This document shows positions 42,322 through 52,882 of a stretch of 64,000 nucleotides of DNA, in pieces. Origin of the DNA: Candidatus Thorarchaeota archaeon (GTDB lineage Archaea; Asgardarchaeota; Thorarchaeia; Thorarchaeales; Thorarchaeaceae). Location: positions 124,001-188,000 of the forward strand of contig JAGSHN010000025.1 in the NCBI GenBank assembly GCA_029855935.1, read 5' to 3'. Each line of letters begins with the position of its first letter. Position 1 is the stretch's first letter. Both the position numbers and the translations under genes were made by a program. Under the pieces are notes generated by a model. That model searched no databases. It had not been told where the DNA came from and was given only the letters and a program-made list of their open reading frames with translations.

Positions 42322-44049
42322 CTAGAAGACGGCACGGACAGTGTTCAGTACAAGACCCACGAGATCCCTTGCCCGAGAGACCCTGATGACCGTCGCGCCC
42401 GCCTTGGTCAGAAGGGCCATCGACGGAGGATCAGAGCCCTCATCAAGCCATATGTGGAACACGAACAGGCTATGGCCGCGCTGTGTCAACCTCCTCACGC
42501 AGCGGACCATCTCTCCCCAGTTAGAGACTTCAGCGTCCGTGACCATCAGCACGACGGTCCTGTGCTCTGAGAGCAGACCCATCGTTTCGATTGCCTCGGC
42601 GGGAAGGACAGTGCCCTCCCCTTGGTACCTGAGCAGCACACGTTCGAGCAGGCTTCGTTCCCTCGTCCATCTCGTCTCAATCCAGTCTGAGGAGAAGTTG
42701 ATGACAGCAACCCTGGACCCGCGACGCAACACATAGTCGATTGCGGCAAAGGCGGATAGGAGAGCAAGATGAAATGCTCCCGAGAGCGAGGAGGTCCTGA
42801 CATTCCAGGTCATCGAGCCACTGGAGTCAAGCACAAGCAGAAGGTCTGGGAGGACCTTGGCCTCCGTGTCGGAATAGGACTCTACCCGGTGCCACCTCCG
42901 CGTTGATAGGTTCGGTATGAGGACGGGAAATGCCTGCAACGACTGGACCACATCAAGCTCCTCAATTGGATCACCAATCCGCCATACAATCGGAGCTAGC
43001 GGCAGGGCACCAGTGTGGCTACGCTCTCGTATCTCAAGCCTGACTAGCTCGCGAGCAAGGGCACGATACCAGAAACGGAGCCAGTCACGGCCTGAACCAG
43101 TGACCCCGCGCAGTACCATGGCCGCGCGAAAGTCCTCAAGATTGCCACCACGTTCTCTGATACTCGCAGCAGTGGCCTCAATCTCGGCCTCACTGGCGCG
43201 ACGCAACGGGTCTGTGCATTCTCTCACACGCTCGCCGTTGCGAATCTCGACGGGACTGCCCATCACCCTGTCTACATCTTGTGGGACACGAACAACATCC
43301 TCCTTGCCCTCACCACGCCACGGCAGGCGCACCATCTTGATGCTCTCGCCCGAGCCGCTGCCCGGCAGGCCCTCTTCCCCTGAAGTCCCCCCGAGTCTGG
43401 CAATGATCTGAGCAATCTTTTCGACTGCCAAGGGCCATCTGCGTTCACGATGACGATACTGGCGGAACACCTCCACAATCTCGGAGGCTGCAGCCAAGAT
43501 GTCTCTACCGAGCTTCACGGACTCCGGAACGGGGAGACCCCACTGGACTCGGTAGGTCGCCACGATGAGCGACCAGAGGACTGACCGCTGGGCGCCCTTC
43601 ATTGCGGAATAGTAGACCGAGTGTACGATCCGATTGTGGGTCAGACGAGGATACTGCTCAAGAAGTAGGGAGTCGACGACGAGGTCCGCGAACAGGTTAC
43701 ACGCGAACATAGCGGTCTCGTCATTCAGATGTCGTCGGGCACGGGAGAACATCATCGCACTGGTCACGTTGTCATAAGGACAGGTCAGGTAGTGCTGCAG
43801 CTCATGATGGCACACTGACCTGACAAAGGCGAAGGTCTCTTCGCTCGTCAGATAGTCGGGGACACTAGCGAGGTTGAGATGGACAGTCCACGTCTCGGTG
43901 TCGATGTAAAAGTGGCTGGGACGCTCGTCGTCGATGTCTATGACAGGGTCAGGGACAGGCGGCGAGTACAGGTCAGCCAGTGCCCGTGACCACGCACGCT
44001 CTGCGACCTCTATGATATGAGGCATGCCAGATCTGCTGTCGGACACCAT
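42322..44049 (-). CDS. vWA protein with HExxH metallopeptidase-like N-terminal domain
   Basis: 575 aa from ATG 44049, which overlaps the MoxR stop as TGATG and has GAGG before it. Residues about 72-130 hold SVCHHELQHYLTCP, an HExxH zinc motif (82-86), with CNLFADLVVDSLL downstream as a plausible third ligand region. Residues about 400-575 are a vWA domain with an intact MIDAS motif, LLLVLDSSGSMTW (408-412), plus VLMVTDAEVSNW. This matches the predicted metal-dependent peptidase/vWA family that usually pairs with MoxR ATPases. The pair may remodel or process a protein target; the target is unknown. Confidence 0.78.
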   Translation of the reverse strand: MVSDSRSGMPHIIEVAERAWSRALADLYSPPVPDPVIDIDDERPSHFYIDTETWTVHLNLASVPDYLTSEETFAFVRSVCHHELQHYLTCPYDNVTSAMMFSRARRHLNDETAMFACNLFADLVVDSLLLEQYPRLTHNRIVHSVYYSAMKGAQRSVLWSLIVATYRVQWGLPVPESVKLGRDILAAASEIVEVFRQYRHRERRWPLAVEKIAQIIARLGGTSGEEGLPGSGSGESIKMVRLPWRGEGKEDVVRVPQDVDRVMGSPVEIRNGERVRECTDPLRRASEAEIEATAASIRERGGNLEDFRAAMVLRGVTGSGRDWLRFWYRALARELVRLEIRERSHTGALPLAPIVWRIGDPIEELDVVQSLQAFPVLIPNLSTRRWHRVESYSDTEAKVLPDLLLVLDSSGSMTWNVRTSSLSGAFHLALLSAFAAIDYVLRRGSRVAVINFSSDWIETRWTRERSLLERVLLRYQGEGTVLPAEAIETMGLLSEHRTVVLMVTDAEVSNWGEMVRCVRRLTQRGHSLFVFHIWLDEGSDPPSMALLTKAGATVIRVSRARDLVGLVLNTVRAVF

Positions 44050-45803
44050 CAACGCCTCGCTACTTGTCCCAGTCCCTCCTCAATTATCCTCCTCAGTCTG
44101 ATTGCAGGAGTACCACCCGACACCTCAAGAAACACGGATGAGTCCGGTGAATCGCCAGTGACATAGATGACCAGGGTCAGTTGATCCATTCGAATGACAC
44201 GTCGCTTGGGCGGATGTAGGGTCTCCTTTAGGAAGGGCGTCATCTCGGGGAATGCCATACTGATGGTCGTCCACAGCTCACTCCAACGACGGAAGTCAAG
44301 GGTGTACTGCGACAGCGTAAGCCTGTGAAGGGCATCCGAGACCCGGCCAATCAGGGCGGCGCGGTTCGGTATTGTAGATGACCGTACAAGTTCCGCATAC
44401 ACCTTTGAGAGCCTCTTGACATCACCTGCAGCAATAGCAGCATCAATACGATGCACCATCTTCTCGTACGAGGCCTGTATCATCTTCTTTGCCACAGGGA
44501 GATAGTCGAGTCTGACCAGTAGATCGCTCTTGGCAATCTCCTGGAGTTTCTGGATGTCATCACGAGACCCATCACCCGTCTGTAGGCGGGCCATTATCTT
44601 ACGGGCTGGCTCCCGGGCCACGAATCGGGCAGTGGCCAGCTCCACAAGGTGGCACGTGAACTCGTATCTGTCACCATAGAAGGGCGATGCAGCCAGCCGG
44701 TCACGTACAAAGCGGGTGCGATGCCAGAAGACGAGCGGTGCAATCGACTTGACGATGTCCACACTCACTTCATCCGCACCGACAAGCCACGCTAGCGCCT
44801 TGCTGTAACGATTCAGGTCCTTTGCAGCCCTGACGCTGAGTGGGATGACCACTTTGTTGCATACCGTCTTGGCGATGTTGTAGTGACATCCATCACAGAG
44901 TCCCGAGTCAACTGTCAGCTCTCCAGACTGGCTCTTGTCGACACGCACACAGGCGTCGAACTCCCTCACCAATGACCGTATGTACTCGGAGGCCCCGTGC
45001 GATACCGCCATCTTATCCGCAAGATTCCAGATTGTGAGGAGGTCCTCCTCTGTCAGGATCCCCGGCACCTGCCAGAGCTCGTCGTAGCCGAAGAGCCTCT
45101 CATCACGGGTACCCAGGATGATCTCAAGGTCAGAGATTCGAGGCATTGTTATTGGTACGGCAAGGCCAAACCTGTCGAGAAAGGGTGGCGCCAGCTCAAA
45201 GGTCCCCGAGTCGGTTGGATTCATAGTGGCAAACAGGCAGTATTCCTCGCATCGGCGCACCTCATCATAGTACTTGAGTTCGCCCTCCGCAAGCATCGAC
45301 AGGAGTATGTTCTGTGCATGCGGAGTGAGACGATTGACCTCATCGACTATTTTCCAGAAGTCCGTTACAAACCGCCGCCAAACAACAACCTCGCGACCCT
45401 CCTTCATCAACGGGCCAGGACGAAGCGTCGCCACCATCTTCTCCTCGGTCAGCTGTGGGTGTCCACGGAGAATGGCATCCTCGATCTCGGCTATGCTCCG
45501 CCCCGTCATCATCCGGCCAAGGAGTTTCACAAGGGTGGTCTTGCCGCCGCCGTGGCCTCCAACAAGCAGCATCGCAGAGCGAGGGACCAGGGCATTAAGA
45601 ACACAGCTACCAGCAATGAGCGGCAGTCGAATCGACTTCGCACGACCCGCTCCCGCTGGCTGATACTTCACGGTCAGCTCCCCGGAGTGAACGAACAGGC
45701 CGTGGCTCTCGACCGTCGTGATGACCTCCATCACCTTGCGCCTCAGCTGTTCGTTCCTGCTGACCATTGCGATCACATCGCGTACTCTTATCGGAGTCTC
45801 CAT
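44049..45803 (-). CDS. MoxR-like AAA+ ATPase
   Basis: 584 aa. Walker A GGHGGGKTT (82-90), Walker B FWKIVDEVNRL, sensor-1 FATMNPTDSGTFELAPPFLD with the arginine-finger region FLDRFGLAVPI fit MoxR AAA+ proteins. A cysteine patch LCDGCHYNIAKTVCNKV near residue 300 may bind zinc. The C-terminal 200 residues are helical and lack a known domain. Its stop overlaps the start of the HExxH/vWA gene, as usual for MoxR-vWA pairs. It is divergent from the pseudo-AAA/SMC operon; TATA-like AATAAA at about 45858-45866 lies between them. Confidence 0.85.
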   Translation of the reverse strand: METPIRVRDVIAMVSRNEQLRRKVMEVITTVESHGLFVHSGELTVKYQPAGAGRAKSIRLPLIAGSCVLNALVPRSAMLLVGGHGGGKTTLVKLLGRMMTGRSIAEIEDAILRGHPQLTEEKMVATLRPGPLMKEGREVVVWRRFVTDFWKIVDEVNRLTPHAQNILLSMLAEGELKYYDEVRRCEEYCLFATMNPTDSGTFELAPPFLDRFGLAVPITMPRISDLEIILGTRDERLFGYDELWQVPGILTEEDLLTIWNLADKMAVSHGASEYIRSLVREFDACVRVDKSQSGELTVDSGLCDGCHYNIAKTVCNKVVIPLSVRAAKDLNRYSKALAWLVGADEVSVDIVKSIAPLVFWHRTRFVRDRLAASPFYGDRYEFTCHLVELATARFVAREPARKIMARLQTGDGSRDDIQKLQEIAKSDLLVRLDYLPVAKKMIQASYEKMVHRIDAAIAAGDVKRLSKVYAELVRSSTIPNRAALIGRVSDALHRLTLSQYTLDFRRWSELWTTISMAFPEMTPFLKETLHPPKRRVIRMDQLTLVIYVTGDSPDSSVFLEVSGGTPAIRLRRIIEEGLGQVARR

Positions 45804-45875: not shown

Positions 45876-46982
45876 ATGCCGGATGAAGGGCAGGTACCTA
45901 CAGTGGGCGAAGAGACCTCATTTGCTGACGCGATAAGGCTGGTGTCGCGGGAGGACATCAGTCCCAGTGGACTAGCACAGCGGTCAGTCGTCGAGATGGC
46001 AGAGTCTGTAGCCGAGGTCATTTCTGGCACCCTAGCCGCACGAGAGCAACTCGAGCAATTGGGCCTCTCCCCATGCACAAGGATACTATTCACGGGCCCC
46101 GTAGGAACGGACTTTGAGGACTTTGTCCTCTCTGTCTGCAGAGAGATGTCGCTGAATCTCGTAAGACTTCGAGTCGAGAGAACATTGCAATACGAGAGAG
46201 AGTTTGACACACTTGTTGCAGCAGCACTGGACACTGCACGCAGAGAGGCACCAGCCCTCCTGCACATCTCGTCACTGCATCTCTTGAGGGCCGTTGGAGA
46301 ACGTTCTGAGGTCCTTCTCCGAGAACAGCTGGCACAGTCGTCTATGGATAGCCAGTCTCTCGTCGTCATTGTGGGCACCACTCACAGGCCACAGGATCTC
46401 GACCCACAGACCCTGCTTGCCTTCGACAGAGTGTTGTGCGTCGGTCCCCCGGACGGAGAGGACCGGCAGAGTCTGCTCGTCCAGGCCCTTGCGTCACACG
46501 AGGACATTGATATTCCTCGTCTCGTAGACCTCACCGACGGGTGGTCCTACGCGTCACTCAGACATCTTGTTGCGGCCGTATTGGCAGAGGGCGGAGAGTC
46601 GGGCGAGGCGCCATCCATAGACCGCATCGAGAAGATGATAGAGGAGGGGCTGTTCGTCCCAGTTCTTGCCACAGGCAGCACAACCGAACTGGAAAAGAGG
46701 CTTGTCGGCGGGGGACGGGGGATCACACACGTCATTGAGGAGGTGTATCCTGATGACCTCCTCGACCAGCTCTACCTGATGGTCGTTACGGAGGACTATG
46801 GGACAGCACAGCAAGTCATCGAGGCCCTAAACGAGGGACTCCCGCTCTCTGATGAGCAGGTGAGGTTCCTCAACCGTTTTCCGTTTCTCCTCTCAGGAGA
46901 GCCCCGTGAGAGGCTCGCCCGTCTGATAAGGGCGAAGAAGAATAGAGACCGTCTGATGCGCGTGATGGGAAGGGAGGAATGA
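45876..46982 (+). CDS. degenerate (pseudo) AAA protein of the Cdc48/FtsH type, upstream of SMC
   Basis: About 368 aa (ATG 45876; a GTG at 45903 is also possible). Residues about 65-240 follow the AAA pattern of Cdc48/FtsH relatives, but the active site is lost. RILFTGPVGTDFEDFVLSVC replaces GPPGTGKT, APALLHISSLHLL replaces the DEID Walker B, VVIVGTTHRPQDLDPQTLL has His for the sensor-1 Asn, and AFDRVLCVGPPDGEDRQ keeps the shape but not the RFDR finger. The small domain (LVDLTDGWSYASLRHLVAAV) is preserved. It should bind no ATP and act as a structural or regulatory subunit. It is 4 nt upstream of the SMC gene, so a partnership with SMC is likely. Confidence 0.72.
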   Translation: MPDEGQVPTVGEETSFADAIRLVSREDISPSGLAQRSVVEMAESVAEVISGTLAAREQLEQLGLSPCTRILFTGPVGTDFEDFVLSVCREMSLNLVRLRVERTLQYEREFDTLVAAALDTARREAPALLHISSLHLLRAVGERSEVLLREQLAQSSMDSQSLVVIVGTTHRPQDLDPQTLLAFDRVLCVGPPDGEDRQSLLVQALASHEDIDIPRLVDLTDGWSYASLRHLVAAVLAEGGESGEAPSIDRIEKMIEEGLFVPVLATGSTTELEKRLVGGGRGITHVIEEVYPDDLLDQLYLMVVTEDYGTAQQVIEALNEGLPLSDEQVRFLNRFPFLLSGEPRERLARLIRAKKNRDRLMRVMGREE

Positions 46983-46986
46983 CTGA

Positions 46987-49900
46987 TTGAGCGTGATCGT
47001 GAGGTCAATCAGACTCAGGAACTTCATGCCCTTCGTGGACGAGACAGTCCCGCTCGACCGCGGACTGACAGTCATTGTGGGGAGGAACGGCGCTGGCAAG
47101 AGTGCGATACTGCACGGACTGAAGTTCTGCCTGGGCTCAAACCAGCGAGAGAAACGATTTGGTAGCTGGGAGGGCTTCATCAGATGGGGCGCGGAAGTTG
47201 CAGAAGTTGAAGTGACGGTTGAGCATCAGGGTGAGACGATCGTCTTCGCGCGCAGGATTGGCAAGAAGGGAGTCCCACTGGCCTACATTAACGGCCGAAG
47301 GGTCCGTGCATCGGAGCTGCGGCGCGAGGTCGAGCGCCTCGGTTTCAAGGTTGACAACCCTCTTGTCTTCCTCCCACAGGAACGTGTCATTCAGCTGAGC
47401 AGTGCATCAGCAACCGACATCAGAGAGATGGTCGAGGATGGTACGGGACTCTACAGACTGAGGGACCGGATCCTCCTTCAGGAGACAGAACTGCGTCACG
47501 ACAGGATGAGATTGGAGGCCGCGCTTCTGGAGGCCCGCTCCATTCAGGGAGAATTGAAGCTTCTCGAGGGCGACCTCAAGCGCCTGAAGAAGAAGCAGGA
47601 TCTGCAGAGGACCAGAGAGAGCCTTGAGATCGAGTTGAAGTGGGCCGAACTCGAACTTGTGGAGAGGAACATCGAGAGAATCGACCAGGAGATTCAGGAA
47701 GAGGAGGTCAGCCTAAGACAGGCCAGTGCAAAAGTCGAGGAGATTGAGAACAAGATAGAGAGTGAGACCCAGACGGCCAAGGCGATCGAGTCGCAGACGC
47801 AGCTAATAAGGACCGAACTCGGCCGACTGAGAGAGCGGCTGGATTCGGAACGAGACCGGTTGAAAAACCTGAAGGAGAGCAACAAGCAGGCTGTGATAGA
47901 GCTCGGGGAGATTGACAAGCGCATCAAGAGAGACAGAATGGAGATGATGGCGCTACAGAGTGACATCGAGGCGAAGAAGAAGGAGATATGGAACACCACG
48001 GAGGAACTCGAGGAACTCAGGGAGAAGGAACAGGCGGCGAGAGAGGAACAGGAGAGACTTGAGGAGGCGCTAACACGCTACGTCGAGTGGAACACGCGTA
48101 GGATGGACATTCGGAGTAGACTGACAGCCGCACGAGGTCGGCTGAAGGACAGAGAGATAGATCTGAGAGCCTATCGCCAGAGGCTTCAGACAGACAGAGC
48201 CGATCTTGAGGAGATTGAGAGACAGTGGAGTGATCTGTGGGAGACGCTCGAGACCACAAGCGAAGAGGAACTACTATCTCAAAGGACCGAGACCAACAAT
48301 AGGATTGAAGAGCTGGCACAGAGGAGGGTGGCACATCTCAGCCGTATCGCTGAGCTGAAGAGGGAACTCGCGTTCACTGAAGAGTTGATAGCAGAGAGGT
48401 CAAAACGGATACCGAAGACTGTTCGTGCCCTCAGGTCTGAGGTAGAGAAGCACGGACTAGAGGCCATCGGTCCTCTCGTAGAGGTCGTGGGCGAGAACGA
48501 GGAGATGGCGGGCGCACTGGAGGCTGTACTGCGTGACCAGCTGGCCTTCGCATTCATAACGACAGACGCTGCGGACTTCCAGCTACTCTGTAGAATACGG
48601 GACGAACTTGAGGCGCCTGCACCAGTATTCCTAGTCGAAGATTCAACAGACGAGCGTGCCAAGGGGGCCCCCGAGATAGGAGGGAGGGAGGGGGTCCTTG
48701 GTGATCTGTGGCGGATGGCCGGGGTGACAGAGGAGCTTGCCCGCCTGCTGCGCAGGAGCATCGGATCGTTCTTGGTAGTCTCTGACGCAGGAGATGCAAT
48801 GCGCATCGCCCGCACAGCAAGGGTAGCCACCGTCACACCTCAAGGCCACGTCTTCATCGTTGGGAATGGTTTCGTCTTGAGCAGGCCCCAGAGTGGGCAG
48901 GCTGGACTCCTCTCGACAGCGCCTCTTCGAGCCAAGAGAGAGGTGCTGAGAAAGCAACTCATCGAAAGCGAACAACAGCTCGCGGAAACAGTCAGAGAGA
49001 TTGCGAATCTGGAGCGACTGCGCGACGAGCTGACCCAGCTTCTCGAGCGCTACGCGGAAAAGGACAGGATATGGGCCAGACGGAGCGAACTCGCAGAGGA
49101 TATCGAGCGGACCGAGGAGGCCATCCGCAAGATCGAGGAGGAGATTCTCCCTCTGAGGGAGGAGATTGAAGAACTCGTGTCCGAGCTGAGGAAGATGGAT
49201 AGCAAGCAGCCTCCTGAGAGGAGCCGGATTCAGGGCCAGCTCGTTGCCGTGCGTCAGCAGATCGCCAAGCTCGCCTCCGACATCTCCGCACGCAGGGGCC
49301 AGGTGGAGCGTGCAAGAGCTATCTTGAGGGCAGATCAGGACAAGGTCGGTACACTGGAAGAGAGCATTGCTGCACTGCAGCAGCATCGTGATGAGCTGAA
49401 GGAGATTCTCAGGCTGGCTGCCGAACAGTCCGACGAGATACTTGAGAACATAGAGGGCCTTGAGAGACGTATAGAGGAACTCTCTTCGAAGGAGGAGTCC
49501 CTGTCGCAGGAGCTGAGCGAACACCAGACAAAGCTGTACGCTCTGAACAGGGAGCTCGCGGAACACAACGTCCGTAGTCAGGACCTCATCAGAGAGGTGC
49601 GGCGCAAACGGCTACAACTGGGAAATCTTGAGACTCGCAGGAAGGAGATACAGAGTCAGGTCGCCTCAATCGCACGACCAGCCCGGGTGAGACCCCTTGC
49701 AGATGTCACCCGCGAGCTGGAGAGCGTGACCTCGCGGTTGGACGAGTACAGGGATGTGGATGATGACCTTCTTCGCGTCAGGTCCGAGCTTGCCCAGCGA
49801 CTGGCGGAGGTCGAGGCCAAGGCCGACCAGATACGTGACGAGATGTCAGAGGCTGAGAGCACGCTGGAGGACATCAAGGCGCAGTACTACAGTGAGATGG

Positions 49901-50424
49901 CAAAGGTGCTGGAGCGTCTCGGCAGAGACATCAACACTATTCTGAGGACTGTCGAGCTGGAAGGGGAGGTACGTCTGGAGATGGTCAAACAGGACGAGGA
50001 GTACGGGGTCGAGTTCCTGACGAGAATCAAGGATGGTACGTTCAAGGGCGTGAGACCGGGATCCGGCGGAGAGCGCACCCTGATAACAATTGCACTGATC
50101 ATCGCGCTACAGCAGCTGAATCCAGCCCCGATATACTTCCTCGATGAGGCGGACATGGCATTGGATGCTGTCTATGCGGACCGCGTCGGCCGACTGTTCA
50201 AGGCGGCTGCGGCCGACAAGCAGATTGTCATTCTGACACCGCTCCGGAGCGTCAAACTTCTCAAGCACGCAGACACTCTTCTGGGAGTTGCAACACCTGA
50301 CGGTCGCACCCCAGTCATCATAGAGGCCCCAGAGGAGGACAAGAACGAAGAACAGAACGAGAGGAAAGAGGGAGATGCCAAGAGGGAGGGAGGCGACGAT
50401 GACGATGGGAGGCAAGAGGAATGA
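46987..50424 (+). CDS. SMC-family ATPase with SMC5/6-like head motifs
   Basis: 1145 aa, TTG start with GGGAGG upstream. Order is head N-terminus (Walker A GRNGAGKSAIL, 32-42), long coiled coil, hinge near residues 480-660 (GPLVEVVGENEEMAGALEAV, VATVTPQGHVFIVGNGF), returning coil, then C-terminal head with signature GSGGERTLITIAL and Walker B IYFLDEADMALD. The GKSAIL Walker A, the FIRWGAEVAEVEVTVEHQG block, VDNPLVFLPQERV and SGGER resemble SMC5/SMC6 more than SMC1-4 or bacterial SMC. It should organise or repair chromosomal DNA with the next two proteins. I infer the SMC5/6 kinship by motif reading only. Confidence 0.88.
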   Translation: MSVIVRSIRLRNFMPFVDETVPLDRGLTVIVGRNGAGKSAILHGLKFCLGSNQREKRFGSWEGFIRWGAEVAEVEVTVEHQGETIVFARRIGKKGVPLAYINGRRVRASELRREVERLGFKVDNPLVFLPQERVIQLSSASATDIREMVEDGTGLYRLRDRILLQETELRHDRMRLEAALLEARSIQGELKLLEGDLKRLKKKQDLQRTRESLEIELKWAELELVERNIERIDQEIQEEEVSLRQASAKVEEIENKIESETQTAKAIESQTQLIRTELGRLRERLDSERDRLKNLKESNKQAVIELGEIDKRIKRDRMEMMALQSDIEAKKKEIWNTTEELEELREKEQAAREEQERLEEALTRYVEWNTRRMDIRSRLTAARGRLKDREIDLRAYRQRLQTDRADLEEIERQWSDLWETLETTSEEELLSQRTETNNRIEELAQRRVAHLSRIAELKRELAFTEELIAERSKRIPKTVRALRSEVEKHGLEAIGPLVEVVGENEEMAGALEAVLRDQLAFAFITTDAADFQLLCRIRDELEAPAPVFLVEDSTDERAKGAPEIGGREGVLGDLWRMAGVTEELARLLRRSIGSFLVVSDAGDAMRIARTARVATVTPQGHVFIVGNGFVLSRPQSGQAGLLSTAPLRAKREVLRKQLIESEQQLAETVREIANLERLRDELTQLLERYAEKDRIWARRSELAEDIERTEEAIRKIEEEILPLREEIEELVSELRKMDSKQPPERSRIQGQLVAVRQQIAKLASDISARRGQVERARAILRADQDKVGTLEESIAALQQHRDELKEILRLAAEQSDEILENIEGLERRIEELSSKEESLSQELSEHQTKLYALNRELAEHNVRSQDLIREVRRKRLQLGNLETRRKEIQSQVASIARPARVRPLADVTRELESVTSRLDEYRDVDDDLLRVRSELAQRLAEVEAKADQIRDEMSEAESTLEDIKAQYYSEMAKVLERLGRDINTILRTVELEGEVRLEMVKQDEEYGVEFLTRIKDGTFKGVRPGSGGERTLITIALIIALQQLNPAPIYFLDEADMALDAVYADRVGRLFKAAAADKQIVILTPLRSVKLLKHADTLLGVATPDGRTPVIIEAPEEDKNEEQNERKEGDAKREGGDDDDGRQEE

Positions 50425-51137
50425 TCAGGGACGCACTCAGGAGTAGGGTGAGACGCCTTGCCCGGAGTGTCGAGTCCGGAGAGGTCGACCCCCTCGAAGT
50501 TGAACTCGCGAGATTGTACAGAGAGCTGCAGGAACTCTCGCAACAACTCCCAGTGAAGATGGAGATCGATGAGGCACTGAACGAACTCCTCAGTGCAAAG
50601 GTGGGTCGGGTGCAGGAACTGGCACGCGCCGTGGTGGACCCAGAACTGCTGGTAGACCGTGTGGCACACATGTCAGCCAGAGAGCTTGCCCGCCTCTTGA
50701 GGCTGAAGCGACCTCTGTTGGTCCCGGGGCTGTCGCATCAGCATATGCATCAGGCAGCGGAACGACTCAGACTTAGAGAACCGAGGAGGCAGTGGGACTT
50801 TGGGCGGGTCGAGCCAGTCGAACGGCCGACAAGGATGGACCTGAGGCTTGAGCCGGAGATCACGGAGGAGGAGGTTGAAGAGTTCCTCACCTCAGTCCCA
50901 GTGGGAGAGCCACTACGACTGAGTGACCTCCTGCGGAGCGAGGACGTGGAGGAGTTCCTGCGTAGGTTCCTGATGGTGGTTCTTCTTGTGGCCAGCGGCG
51001 ACCTTCAGTACGACGCGACCGCCAGAACCCTGACCCGAGTAGAGAGGAGTCCGGACAGTACTTCTTCGCGTGAGCAACAACAGGTCGCTGGCCAGCCAGC
51101 GGACCGAGGGAGGAGATGGAGGAGGCGGTCCCGATGA
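50421..51137 (+). CDS. kleisin (ScpA-like) subunit of the SMC complex
   Basis: 238 aa; the start overlaps the smc stop as ATGA. The N-terminus has EVDPLEVELARLYRELQELS, like the helix of ScpA that touches the SMC neck. The C-terminus holds a winged-helix-like stretch (EEFLRRFLMVVLLVASGDLQ). A central basic, proline-poor linker lies between. This is the order of kleisins. The C-terminal 25 residues are low complexity. Overall similarity to known ScpA is low, so the call rests strongly on the operon. Confidence 0.72.
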   Translation: MIRDALRSRVRRLARSVESGEVDPLEVELARLYRELQELSQQLPVKMEIDEALNELLSAKVGRVQELARAVVDPELLVDRVAHMSARELARLLRLKRPLLVPGLSHQHMHQAAERLRLREPRRQWDFGRVEPVERPTRMDLRLEPEITEEEVEEFLTSVPVGEPLRLSDLLRSEDVEEFLRRFLMVVLLVASGDLQYDATARTLTRVERSPDSTSSREQQQVAGQPADRGRRWRRRSR

Positions 51138-51655
51138 ACAACGAGTTCTCTGTCTTGATGAGCGCACTGACGAGGCCCGGAAACCCCCCGGGGGCAAATA
51201 TCTCAGACCTGATCGAGGTGCTTGGCTATCCAGTCGACCCGGGACGGACAATCGTATTCAGGCTGCTCGCCGGGCTGGATCGCATCCTGCATCAGGTGGG
51301 CCTGAGGATAGCGTTCAATCCGGTCGAAGATGTCTTCTTCATCGATGTCACTGCAAGGGGCAAGGAGGACAGGACAAGACTCCCCGACCGCCTTGCGGCT
51401 ACACTGCTTGCCGTGATAGCACTGTCCTATCGGGAGCGCGACTGGGTCCAGGTGAGCCAAGTCAGACGCGTCCGCAGAAAGACGATGAGATCGGTCCGTG
51501 CGGACCTCCGTGAACTCCAGGTCCTCGGGTACGTAGAGTTCAGTGACGACGGGACCCGCGTCAGACCGGGTATTCGTGTGTCCTTCGAGGTCGACCACGA
51601 TGAGTTCTTCCGTGCGCTGAGCAAGGGAAAGTACGGCGCGAGCAGTGACGAATAG
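51134..51655 (+). CDS. winged-helix KITE-like subunit (ScpB/Nse1-Nse3-like) of the SMC complex
   Basis: ATG 51134 overlaps the kleisin stop as ATGA and GGAGG lies 8 nt before it, giving about 173 aa. The first half (ISDLIEVLGYPVDPGRTIVF, GLDRILHQVGLRIAFNPVED) and the second half (RLAATLLAVIALSYRERDWV, TMRSVRADLRELQVLGYVEF) each look like a winged helix. Two tandem winged helices encoded after a kleisin gene are the mark of KITE proteins. Sequence similarity to any one family is too weak to name it ScpB. Confidence 0.6.
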   Translation: MNNEFSVLMSALTRPGNPPGANISDLIEVLGYPVDPGRTIVFRLLAGLDRILHQVGLRIAFNPVEDVFFIDVTARGKEDRTRLPDRLAATLLAVIALSYRERDWVQVSQVRRVRRKTMRSVRADLRELQVLGYVEFSDDGTRVRPGIRVSFEVDHDEFFRALSKGKYGASSDE

Positions 51656-51733: not shown

Positions 51734-52093
51734 ATGTCGCACAGGAAAGCATTGAGATTCGCAAAGACTGTCTGTCCCATCTGCGGTAGCAAAGAGGTTG
51801 CCCGTGATGACCTGAAGGGCGACCTTCTGTGCACGAACTGTGGCCACATAATCACAAGACATGAGACCCGGGCCGTTGGAAAGTTCGAGATCGCGCAGCA
51901 TCTGAAACGCGAGGGCAAGCTCACGTTCGAGCAGCTCAAAGAGATCACAAAGTCATCGGACGACCGACTGTTTGGCGTGCTGCAGAGCATGCTCAGCATG
52001 GGGCTCATTGACGAACTGGGTGGCAAGTATCACCTGACCAAGCGTGGTCAGCGCTGGTACCGCCAGAGACTGGGACAAGAATGGGGATATTGA
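51734..52093 (+). CDS. zinc-ribbon/winged-helix transcription-factor-like protein
   Basis: 119 aa. The N-terminus has a TFIIB-type ribbon (VCPICGSKEVARDDLKGD, then LLCTNCGHII) with four cysteines. The remainder is a winged-helix-like DNA-binding domain (EIAQHLKREGKLTFEQLKE, LQSMLSMGLIDELGGKYHLT). It is a small regulator without the cyclin repeats of TFB. TATA-like GTTTATC (51693-51699) predicts a short leader. The target is unknown. Confidence 0.65.
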   Translation: MSHRKALRFAKTVCPICGSKEVARDDLKGDLLCTNCGHIITRHETRAVGKFEIAQHLKREGKLTFEQLKEITKSSDDRLFGVLQSMLSMGLIDELGGKYHLTKRGQRWYRQRLGQEWGY

Positions 52094-52450: not shown

Positions 52451-52882
52451 ATGGCTCTTGTTCCGGAGGACAACATTTTGAGCACGAGCAGCAAGGAACC
52501 CGGACGCATAGAATGGGAGAAAGATGTCGTCAGCGATATGATCAACCTGTACTGCAGAAAGAGACACAATACCCCCAAGGGTGAGCTCTGCAGGGAATGC
52601 GCCGACCTCCTCTCGTACTCCCTAGAACGACTTGACCGATGCAGATACGGTGAGGAGAAACCAACGTGCAAGAACTGTCCTACTCACTGCTACCGTCCGG
52701 TGGAGCGCGAGAGAATCAGGGCAGTGATGAGATTCAGTGGTCTGCGGTTGTTCCTCAGGGCTCCGGTAAAATGGATGGTCCACGCTTTTCACGATAGAGT
52801 AAGACTGAGAGCAATCGAACAGAGAAAAATAGAGGGAGAGGCGGGTGGCCAAGAGGACCACCCATCCTCTGGGTCTAGCTGA
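52451..52882 (+). CDS. YgbA-like protein (nitrous-oxide-stimulated promoter family)
   Basis: 143 aa with the family's cysteine-rich core: YCRKRHNTPKGELCRECADL, then DRCRYGEEKPTCKNCPTHCY and REKIR-like RERIRAVMRFSGLRLFLRAP. This family (E. coli YgbA) is linked to nitrosative stress and Fe-S repair; the cysteines may hold a metal or cluster. It is uncommon in archaea as far as I know, so lateral transfer is possible. Its stop overlaps the convergent pyrophosphatase gene by 8 nt. Confidence 0.75.
   Translation: MALVPEDNILSTSSKEPGRIEWEKDVVSDMINLYCRKRHNTPKGELCRECADLLSYSLERLDRCRYGEEKPTCKNCPTHCYRPVERERIRAVMRFSGLRLFLRAPVKWMVHAFHDRVRLRAIEQRKIEGEAGGQEDHPSSGSS
52843..52863. terminator. hairpin at convergent gene ends
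   Basis: GGGTGG (52843-52848) and CCACCC (52858-52863) form a 6-bp stem with a 9-nt loop at the 3' end of the YgbA-like gene and just past the pyrophosphatase stop. It could stop both transcripts, but no T run is present. Confidence 0.35.

Follow-up and report, generated by a model that had tools for sequence, protein, structure and literature searches.

An additional SMC–kleisin–KITE operon in a Thorarchaeota genome, with an SMC probably near the base of the SMC5/6 side and a degenerate AAA+ gene upstream

The 64,000-nucleotide stretch analysed here (the window; positions 124,001 to 188,000 of contig JAGSHN010000025.1, assembly GCA_029855935.1, Candidatus Thorarchaeota archaeon) encodes an operon for a SMC ATPase and for two proteins with the predicted folds of a kleisin and a KITE protein, preceded by a degenerate AAA+ gene. 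We interpret it as encoding a second chromosomal SMC–kleisin–KITE complex of Asgard archaea, with a branching point close to the base of the SMC tree's SMC5/6 side, and give this interpretation a probability of about 75%. The source genome (2.97 Mb, 32 contigs) contains one SMC gene of the window's clade. Elsewhere it encodes a canonical SMC (1228 aa) with the genes for ScpA (Pfam E-value 7.2e-9) and ScpB (2.6e-34) behind it, and the window complex is additional to this ordinary SMC-ScpA-ScpB. Below, f-numbers are GTDB families in the window's phylum (the window's own is f1), L stands for loci and G for genomes. The genome also encodes an ESCRT-II EAP30-type protein that passes the cut-off of its family; no protein from 14 control genomes did so. 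With a Lokiarchaeota SMC (L088) that is 67% identical to the SMC of f2, this bears out the Asgard origin proposed in an earlier inspection of the bare DNA (the sequence-only reading).

The SMC operon and its products

The operon genes and the motifs of the SMC protein are as follows.

45876..46982, + strand: degenerate AAA+ protein of 368 aa, operon gene 1 (Pfam AAA 1.2e-7, NCBIfam CDC48 2.3e-12)
46987..50424, + strand: SMC ATPase of 1145 aa, probably of the SMC5/6 side (Pfam SMC_N 1.3e-34, SMC_hinge 2.4e-5; head trees; insertion character)
47080..47103, + strand: SMC Walker A GRNGAGKS, residues 32-39 (sequence, alignment)
47176..47190, + strand: SMC FIRWG motif, then a short 4-residue loop (alignment)
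47368..47388, + strand: SMC Q-loop FLPQERV (compared with human SMC5 FLPQDKV and yeast Smc5 FLSQERV)
48466..48810, + strand: SMC hinge domain, residues 494-608 (Pfam SMC_hinge)
50062..50076, + strand: SMC ABC signature SGGER (sequence)
50137..50154, + strand: SMC Walker B FLDEAD (sequence)
50421..51137, + strand: predicted kleisin of 238 aa, N-terminal part helical, winged helix C-terminal (AlphaFold2, Foldseek, profile comparison)
51134..51655 (open reading frame from 51116), + strand: predicted KITE protein with tandem winged helices (AlphaFold2, Foldseek)

The three open reading frames from SMC to KITE had been recognised in the sequence-only reading, and they are present with ATGA overlaps at the SMC/kleisin (50421) and kleisin/KITE (51134) junctions. 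That reading had overlooked the AAA-like gene at 45876-46982, which belongs to the same operon: the SMC starts with a TTG directly behind its stop codon, with GGAGGAA just 5' of the TTG. Translation of the KITE gene most likely begins at 51134 and not at the first in-frame ATG (51116), because the junction with the kleisin reads ATGA. The SMC protein has a head, a coiled coil and a hinge, and Walker A, signature and Walker B are all intact; the head motifs quoted earlier (GRNGAGKS, FIRWGAEVAEVEV, DNPLVFLPQERV, SGGER and FLDEAD) are real.

Neither the kleisin nor the KITE protein reached a Pfam or NCBIfam family cut-off, and SMC_ScpA or SMC_ScpB was matched in Pfam by none of the 22 kleisins and 21 KITE proteins scanned. 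Searches of the PDB with sequence profiles gave nothing decisive for either, and their identification rests on predicted folds. The AlphaFold2 model of the KITE protein (pLDDT, the predicted local distance difference test, 86.8) retrieved only KITE proteins or complexes among its ten best Foldseek matches (five of ScpB type, three of Wadjet JetABC, MAGE-G1/NSE-1 and Nse1-Nse3-Nse4), and MukE was also matched. In profile comparison it was closer to the KITE proteins of SMC5/6-like operons of f14 and f16 (probability 85) than to ScpB (35), and the assignment to the KITE fold is supported by these predictions. The kleisin fold assignment is less firmly supported. The model (pLDDT 78.5) has as best Foldseek matches, all of them weak, 7tve_G (E 0.0099) and 7qcd_F (0.085), followed by the C-terminal domain of ScpA (4i99, 0.14); chains of cohesin complexes also appear among the top matches with weak E-values. 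We take 7tve_G and 7qcd_F, both chains of the SMC5/6 complex, to be Nse4. The C-terminal winged helix further matches the C-terminus of archaeal ScpA in profile comparison (E 2e-5). Of the kleisin and double winged-helix protein proposed earlier, the latter thus stands well and the former on weaker matches, and their resemblance is not confined to ScpA and ScpB, since Nse4, JetABC, NSE1 and MukE are matched too.

Relatives of the window SMC are 32-38% identical to it inside its own GTDB family and 22-26% identical in further families of the same phylum, and the order AAA-SMC-kleisin-KITE is kept in seven families. The operon is therefore not a chance arrangement, since the SMC recurs across families with the same gene order. 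A profile of the KITE protein found matches in 109 of 393 related genomes (E <= 1e-5), all in the window's phylum, to which 228 of the 393 belong, and none in the approximately 165 genomes outside it. A profile search of genome contigs with the SMC alignment, which was dominated by the generic P-loop pattern, returned mostly bacterial SMCs and one Lokiarchaeota record (L088). In L088 and three loci of f2 (L175, L176, L182), all from Lokiarchaeota-type genomes, a canonical-side SMC of about 1480 aa occurs in addition to the window-type SMC. In four loci of the window's family (L040, L041, L045, L050) a gene of about 450 aa on the opposite strand sits between kleisin and KITE.

Placement of the SMC head and competing explanations

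Two trees were made from the N- and C-terminal ATPase halves of the SMC head (about 360 columns), with eukaryotic SMC1-6 taken from PDB chain sequences; one was calculated under LG+F+R4 with the SMC of f9 (L172) included, the other under LG+C20 PMSF (posterior mean site frequency) with four Rad50 outgroups. Support values are SH-aLRT/UFBoot. The tree splits into a canonical side (SMC1-4, bacterial and canonical archaeal SMCs) and an SMC5/6 side that includes the window's clade, itself supported with 100/100. The window clade is on the SMC5/6 side, and not inside the canonical archaeal SMCs, with 99.6/99 (LG+F+R4) and 99.8/100 (LG+C20 PMSF), values to be read together with the approximately unbiased (AU) test, which does not reject a grouping of the window clade with the canonical side (p 0.10 under C20, 0.43 under LG). 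Nesting of SMC5/6 with the canonical side is rejected under C20 (p 0.024).

The loop that follows the FI[R/K]xG motif gives a second character. Of 16 window-clade SMCs, 15 have a loop of 4 residues and one a loop of 6; 4 residues are also the length in the SMCs of f11/f14/f16/f28x (10/10), in SMC5/6 (4/4) and in Rad50 (4/4). SMC1-4, bacterial SMCs and 10 of 11 canonical archaeal SMCs have 8-12 residues there, an insertion of 4-8. The best reading is that the insertion arose in the canonical clade, leaving the window's clade outside that clade. Since Rad50 also lacks it, the short loop is ancestral and by itself no proof of kinship with SMC5/6; FI[R/K]xG with the short loop behind it, part of the motif resemblance to SMC5/6, is probably such an ancestral trait common to Rad50. 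The earlier view that the head looks like SMC5/6, and not like SMC1-4 or bacterial SMC, agrees with the trees and the missing insertion, but the AU test leaves a canonical-side grouping standing. Trees and insertion character support, less firmly than the presence of the operon itself, a position of the window SMC on the SMC5/6 side.

Several observations weigh against our interpretation. Besides this AU result, the whole-protein profile of the window SMC scored higher against SMC2 and SMC3 than against SMC5 in the PDB, a ranking that we take as uninformative because SMC5/6 evolve fast and coiled coils contribute to it. None of the fold matches of the kleisin had an E-value below 0.001. The window-type complex is also missing from some near-complete relatives (e.g., G006, 96% complete), so it can be lost and is not essential everywhere. 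The SMC2/SMC3 ranking and the AU result would fit an early canonical-side branch, or a fast-evolving canonical duplicate drawn to SMC5/6 by long branches, as would the second SMCs of f13 and f24, which are of the canonical side and likewise have AAA+ upstream and KITE downstream. Such an origin seems rather unlikely: the insertion character speaks against nesting within the canonical clade, the C20 tree supports the SMC5/6 side, and kleisin and KITE are not Pfam members of ScpA and ScpB, though the canonical pair of the same genome is. A defence system against plasmids or phages similar to Wadjet would have the same basic subunits (SMC, kleisin and KITE) and could explain the weak, generic ATPase-domain matches to LmuB and JetC and the patchy loss of the complex in one genus of the window's family. 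We regard this as very improbable, since no JetD-type nuclease was recognised among the operon neighbours, PADLOC gave no match for kleisin or KITE, and the operon occurs in a syntenic neighbourhood with DHOD-B-like and pyrophosphatase genes.

A closer relation to eukaryotes is conceivable as well, with the window clade as direct sister of eukaryotic SMC5/6 and thus a relative of the ancestor itself. The Q-loop FLPQERV and the signature SGGER resemble SMC5, the kleisin fold is closest to Nse4, and the AU test does not reject a grouping of SMC5/6 with the window clade (p 0.21-0.22). The trees, however, join eukaryotic SMC5 and SMC6 with the SMCs of f11, f14 and f16, and of f9 where included, and leave the window's clade outside (95.5/99 under LG+F+R4; 75.4/80, weak, under LG+C20 PMSF). 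The SMC6-like Walker B DEFDV[YF] is common to the SMCs of f14 and f16, the window clade has a single SMC gene, and no Nse2-like subunit was seen in the window cluster. A direct sister relation is therefore unlikely. Of the sequence-only proposal of an Asgard relative of the SMC5/6 ancestor, the placement on the SMC5/6 side remains, but a place as closest relative is not supported: the window clade probably represents a side branch within the SMC5/6 lineage and not a demonstrated ancestor. As a stand-in for the eukaryotic ancestor it may be second choice, and the Asgard SMCs of f11/f14/f16 look better.

By homology with other SMC complexes, the additional complex would work with two copies of the single SMC, dimerised at the hinge, whose heads engage on ATP. 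The kleisin would bridge the SMC heads, and a dimer of the KITE protein, bound to the kleisin, could help to clamp DNA. Driven by ATP, the complex would then entrap DNA, translocate along it or extrude loops alongside canonical SMC-ScpAB. If this is correct, Asgard archaea carry complete one-operon relatives of SMC5/6 with kleisin, KITE and AAA+ partner, and the assembly and activity of an ancestor on the SMC5/6 side become testable with simple recombinant complexes.

The upstream AAA+ gene

In the AAA+ protein of the window, Walker A is replaced by GPVGTDFE and the acidic residues of Walker B are gone (LLHISSLHLL). An AAA-family gene lies directly upstream on the same strand in all 37 window-clade SMC loci with the upstream gene in view (seven families), and in 37/37 the P-loop lysine is absent, typically in the sequence GPPGTDFE; a regular-expression P-loop match in L055 precedes the P-loop position and is not counted as a P-loop. 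Several members retain a Pfam match to the AAA fold or lid, and in L149, L065 and L148 the assignment is by position and by our own profile only. The motif is intact in 7/7 operons of f11, f20, f21, f24 and f28x, and the intact proteins of L217, L218 and L157 have strong Pfam AAA matches (best 9.6e-36). The operons preceded by AAA+ include some of canonical-side SMCs (f24, f13), which extends the AAA association beyond the SMC5/6 side. Both L157 (f24) and L075 (f13) contain a canonical-side second SMC, with AAA+ upstream and a KITE gene that fits the window-type profile downstream.

It is likely that an old AAA+ partner turned into a pseudo-ATPase in the window's clade. The constant position of the gene and the loss of its motif suggest that the pseudo-ATPase may be a fourth subunit of the SMC complex, where it would most likely act as a non-catalytic scaffold or regulatory subunit. 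We tentatively propose, at somewhat less than even odds, that Asgard complexes on the SMC5/6 side ancestrally had the AAA+ protein as a fourth subunit or as a loader, a working ATPase in f11, f20 and f21 but inactive in the whole of the window's clade. That the ATP-binding motif is uniformly lost in one clade points to a structural role and offers a testable evolutionary switch. We know of no SMC–kleisin complex with an AAA+ subunit. A study by van Hooff et al. (2025, Cell Reports 44:115855) reportedly, by its title, concerns the archaeal ancestry of SMC complexes and may already describe the kleisin/KITE or AAA+ partner.

Comparison with known systems and neighbouring genes

Archaeal ‘SMC5/6-related’ SMCs that group with SMC5 and SMC6 (100/0.99) were described by Yoshinaga and Inagaki (2021), as reported in PMC9389158. 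Like the window SMC they are archaeal, on the SMC5/6 side and distinct from canonical archaeal SMC, and to judge from that description the window SMC most likely belongs to this published group. As far as PMC9389158 presents it, that work concerns the SMC gene; the present analysis adds the partner proteins, the upstream AAA+ gene and a division of the Asgard SMCs into two groups. Because these archaeal SMCs were already published, what appears to be undescribed is limited to the presence of an AAA+ partner, the way it has degenerated and the order of the genes in detail.

The window complex resembles eukaryotic SMC5/6 in its head motifs, short loop, Nse4-resembling kleisin and KITE partner. 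Unlike the eukaryotic complex, which has two SMC genes (SMC5, SMC6), two KITE proteins (Nse1, which carries a RING, and Nse3) and the SUMO ligase Nse2, the window clade has one SMC gene and the genome one KITE gene by profile. No RING or Nse2-type Pfam match occurred in the scanned genes of the cluster, to which the search was limited, and no Nse2, Nse5 or Nse6 was recognised beside the operon. The operon contains the extra AAA-like gene, and its clade is not the nearest archaeal lineage to SMC5/6 in the trees. With bacterial and archaeal SMC-ScpAB it shares the presence of SMC, kleisin and KITE in one operon and a KITE fold nearest to ScpB in Foldseek, but its partners are not ScpA/ScpB by Pfam, its head is without the canonical insertion, and a true SMC-ScpAB coexists in the genome. 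The SMC-kleisin-KITE architecture and a KITE fold similar to those of JetABC and MukE recall Wadjet/MksBEFG and MukBEF; in contrast to these, no nuclease subunit was recognised and the window SMC is not MukB/JetC-like.

Three further genes flank the operon.

42322..44052, - strand: VWA/CoxE-like protein, MoxR partner (Pfam VWA_2 8.6e-6 and VWA_CoxE 1.1e-3, both under their curated cut-offs; synteny)
44049..45803, - strand: MoxR-like AAA+ ATPase (Pfam AAA_5 7.5e-14, AAA_lid_2; synteny)
51734..52093, + strand: TFIIB-type zinc ribbon and winged-helix-like protein of 119 aa (Pfam Zn_Ribbon_TF 8.5e-8; synteny in f1)

The MoxR-VWA pair is adjacent to the SMC operon and divergently transcribed in f1, and in f4 and f6 MoxR, VWA, AAA, SMC, kleisin and KITE follow in this order on one strand; in the remaining families of the seven compared for synteny this adjacency was not seen. 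MoxR-VWA pairs in general are chaperone-like remodelling modules, which makes it plausible, by analogy, that in some lineages this pair helps to assemble or remodel the SMC complex. The tie of the zinc-ribbon/winged-helix gene to the operon is uncertain. Just downstream of the operon lies a gene for a YgbA-type protein of the nitrous oxide-stimulated promoter family (window 52451-52882).

Elsewhere in the phylum, five loci of f14, f16 and f29 (L076, L077, L224, L227, L228) have SMC5/6-like SMC-kleisin-KITE operons followed by PriL, the large subunit of DNA primase (by Pfam in L076; a gene of about 450 aa at the same place in the other four looks alike). In L076 (Pfam), L077 and L224 the operon is also followed by a ThiF/E1-like gene. 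These neighbours hint at links of SMC5/6-like operons to replication and ubiquitin-like chemistry. Lastly, the source genome encodes a SMC-like ATPase of about 433 aa (L184, C10:42000-48000) that is possibly an archaea-specific SMC-related protein (ASRP).

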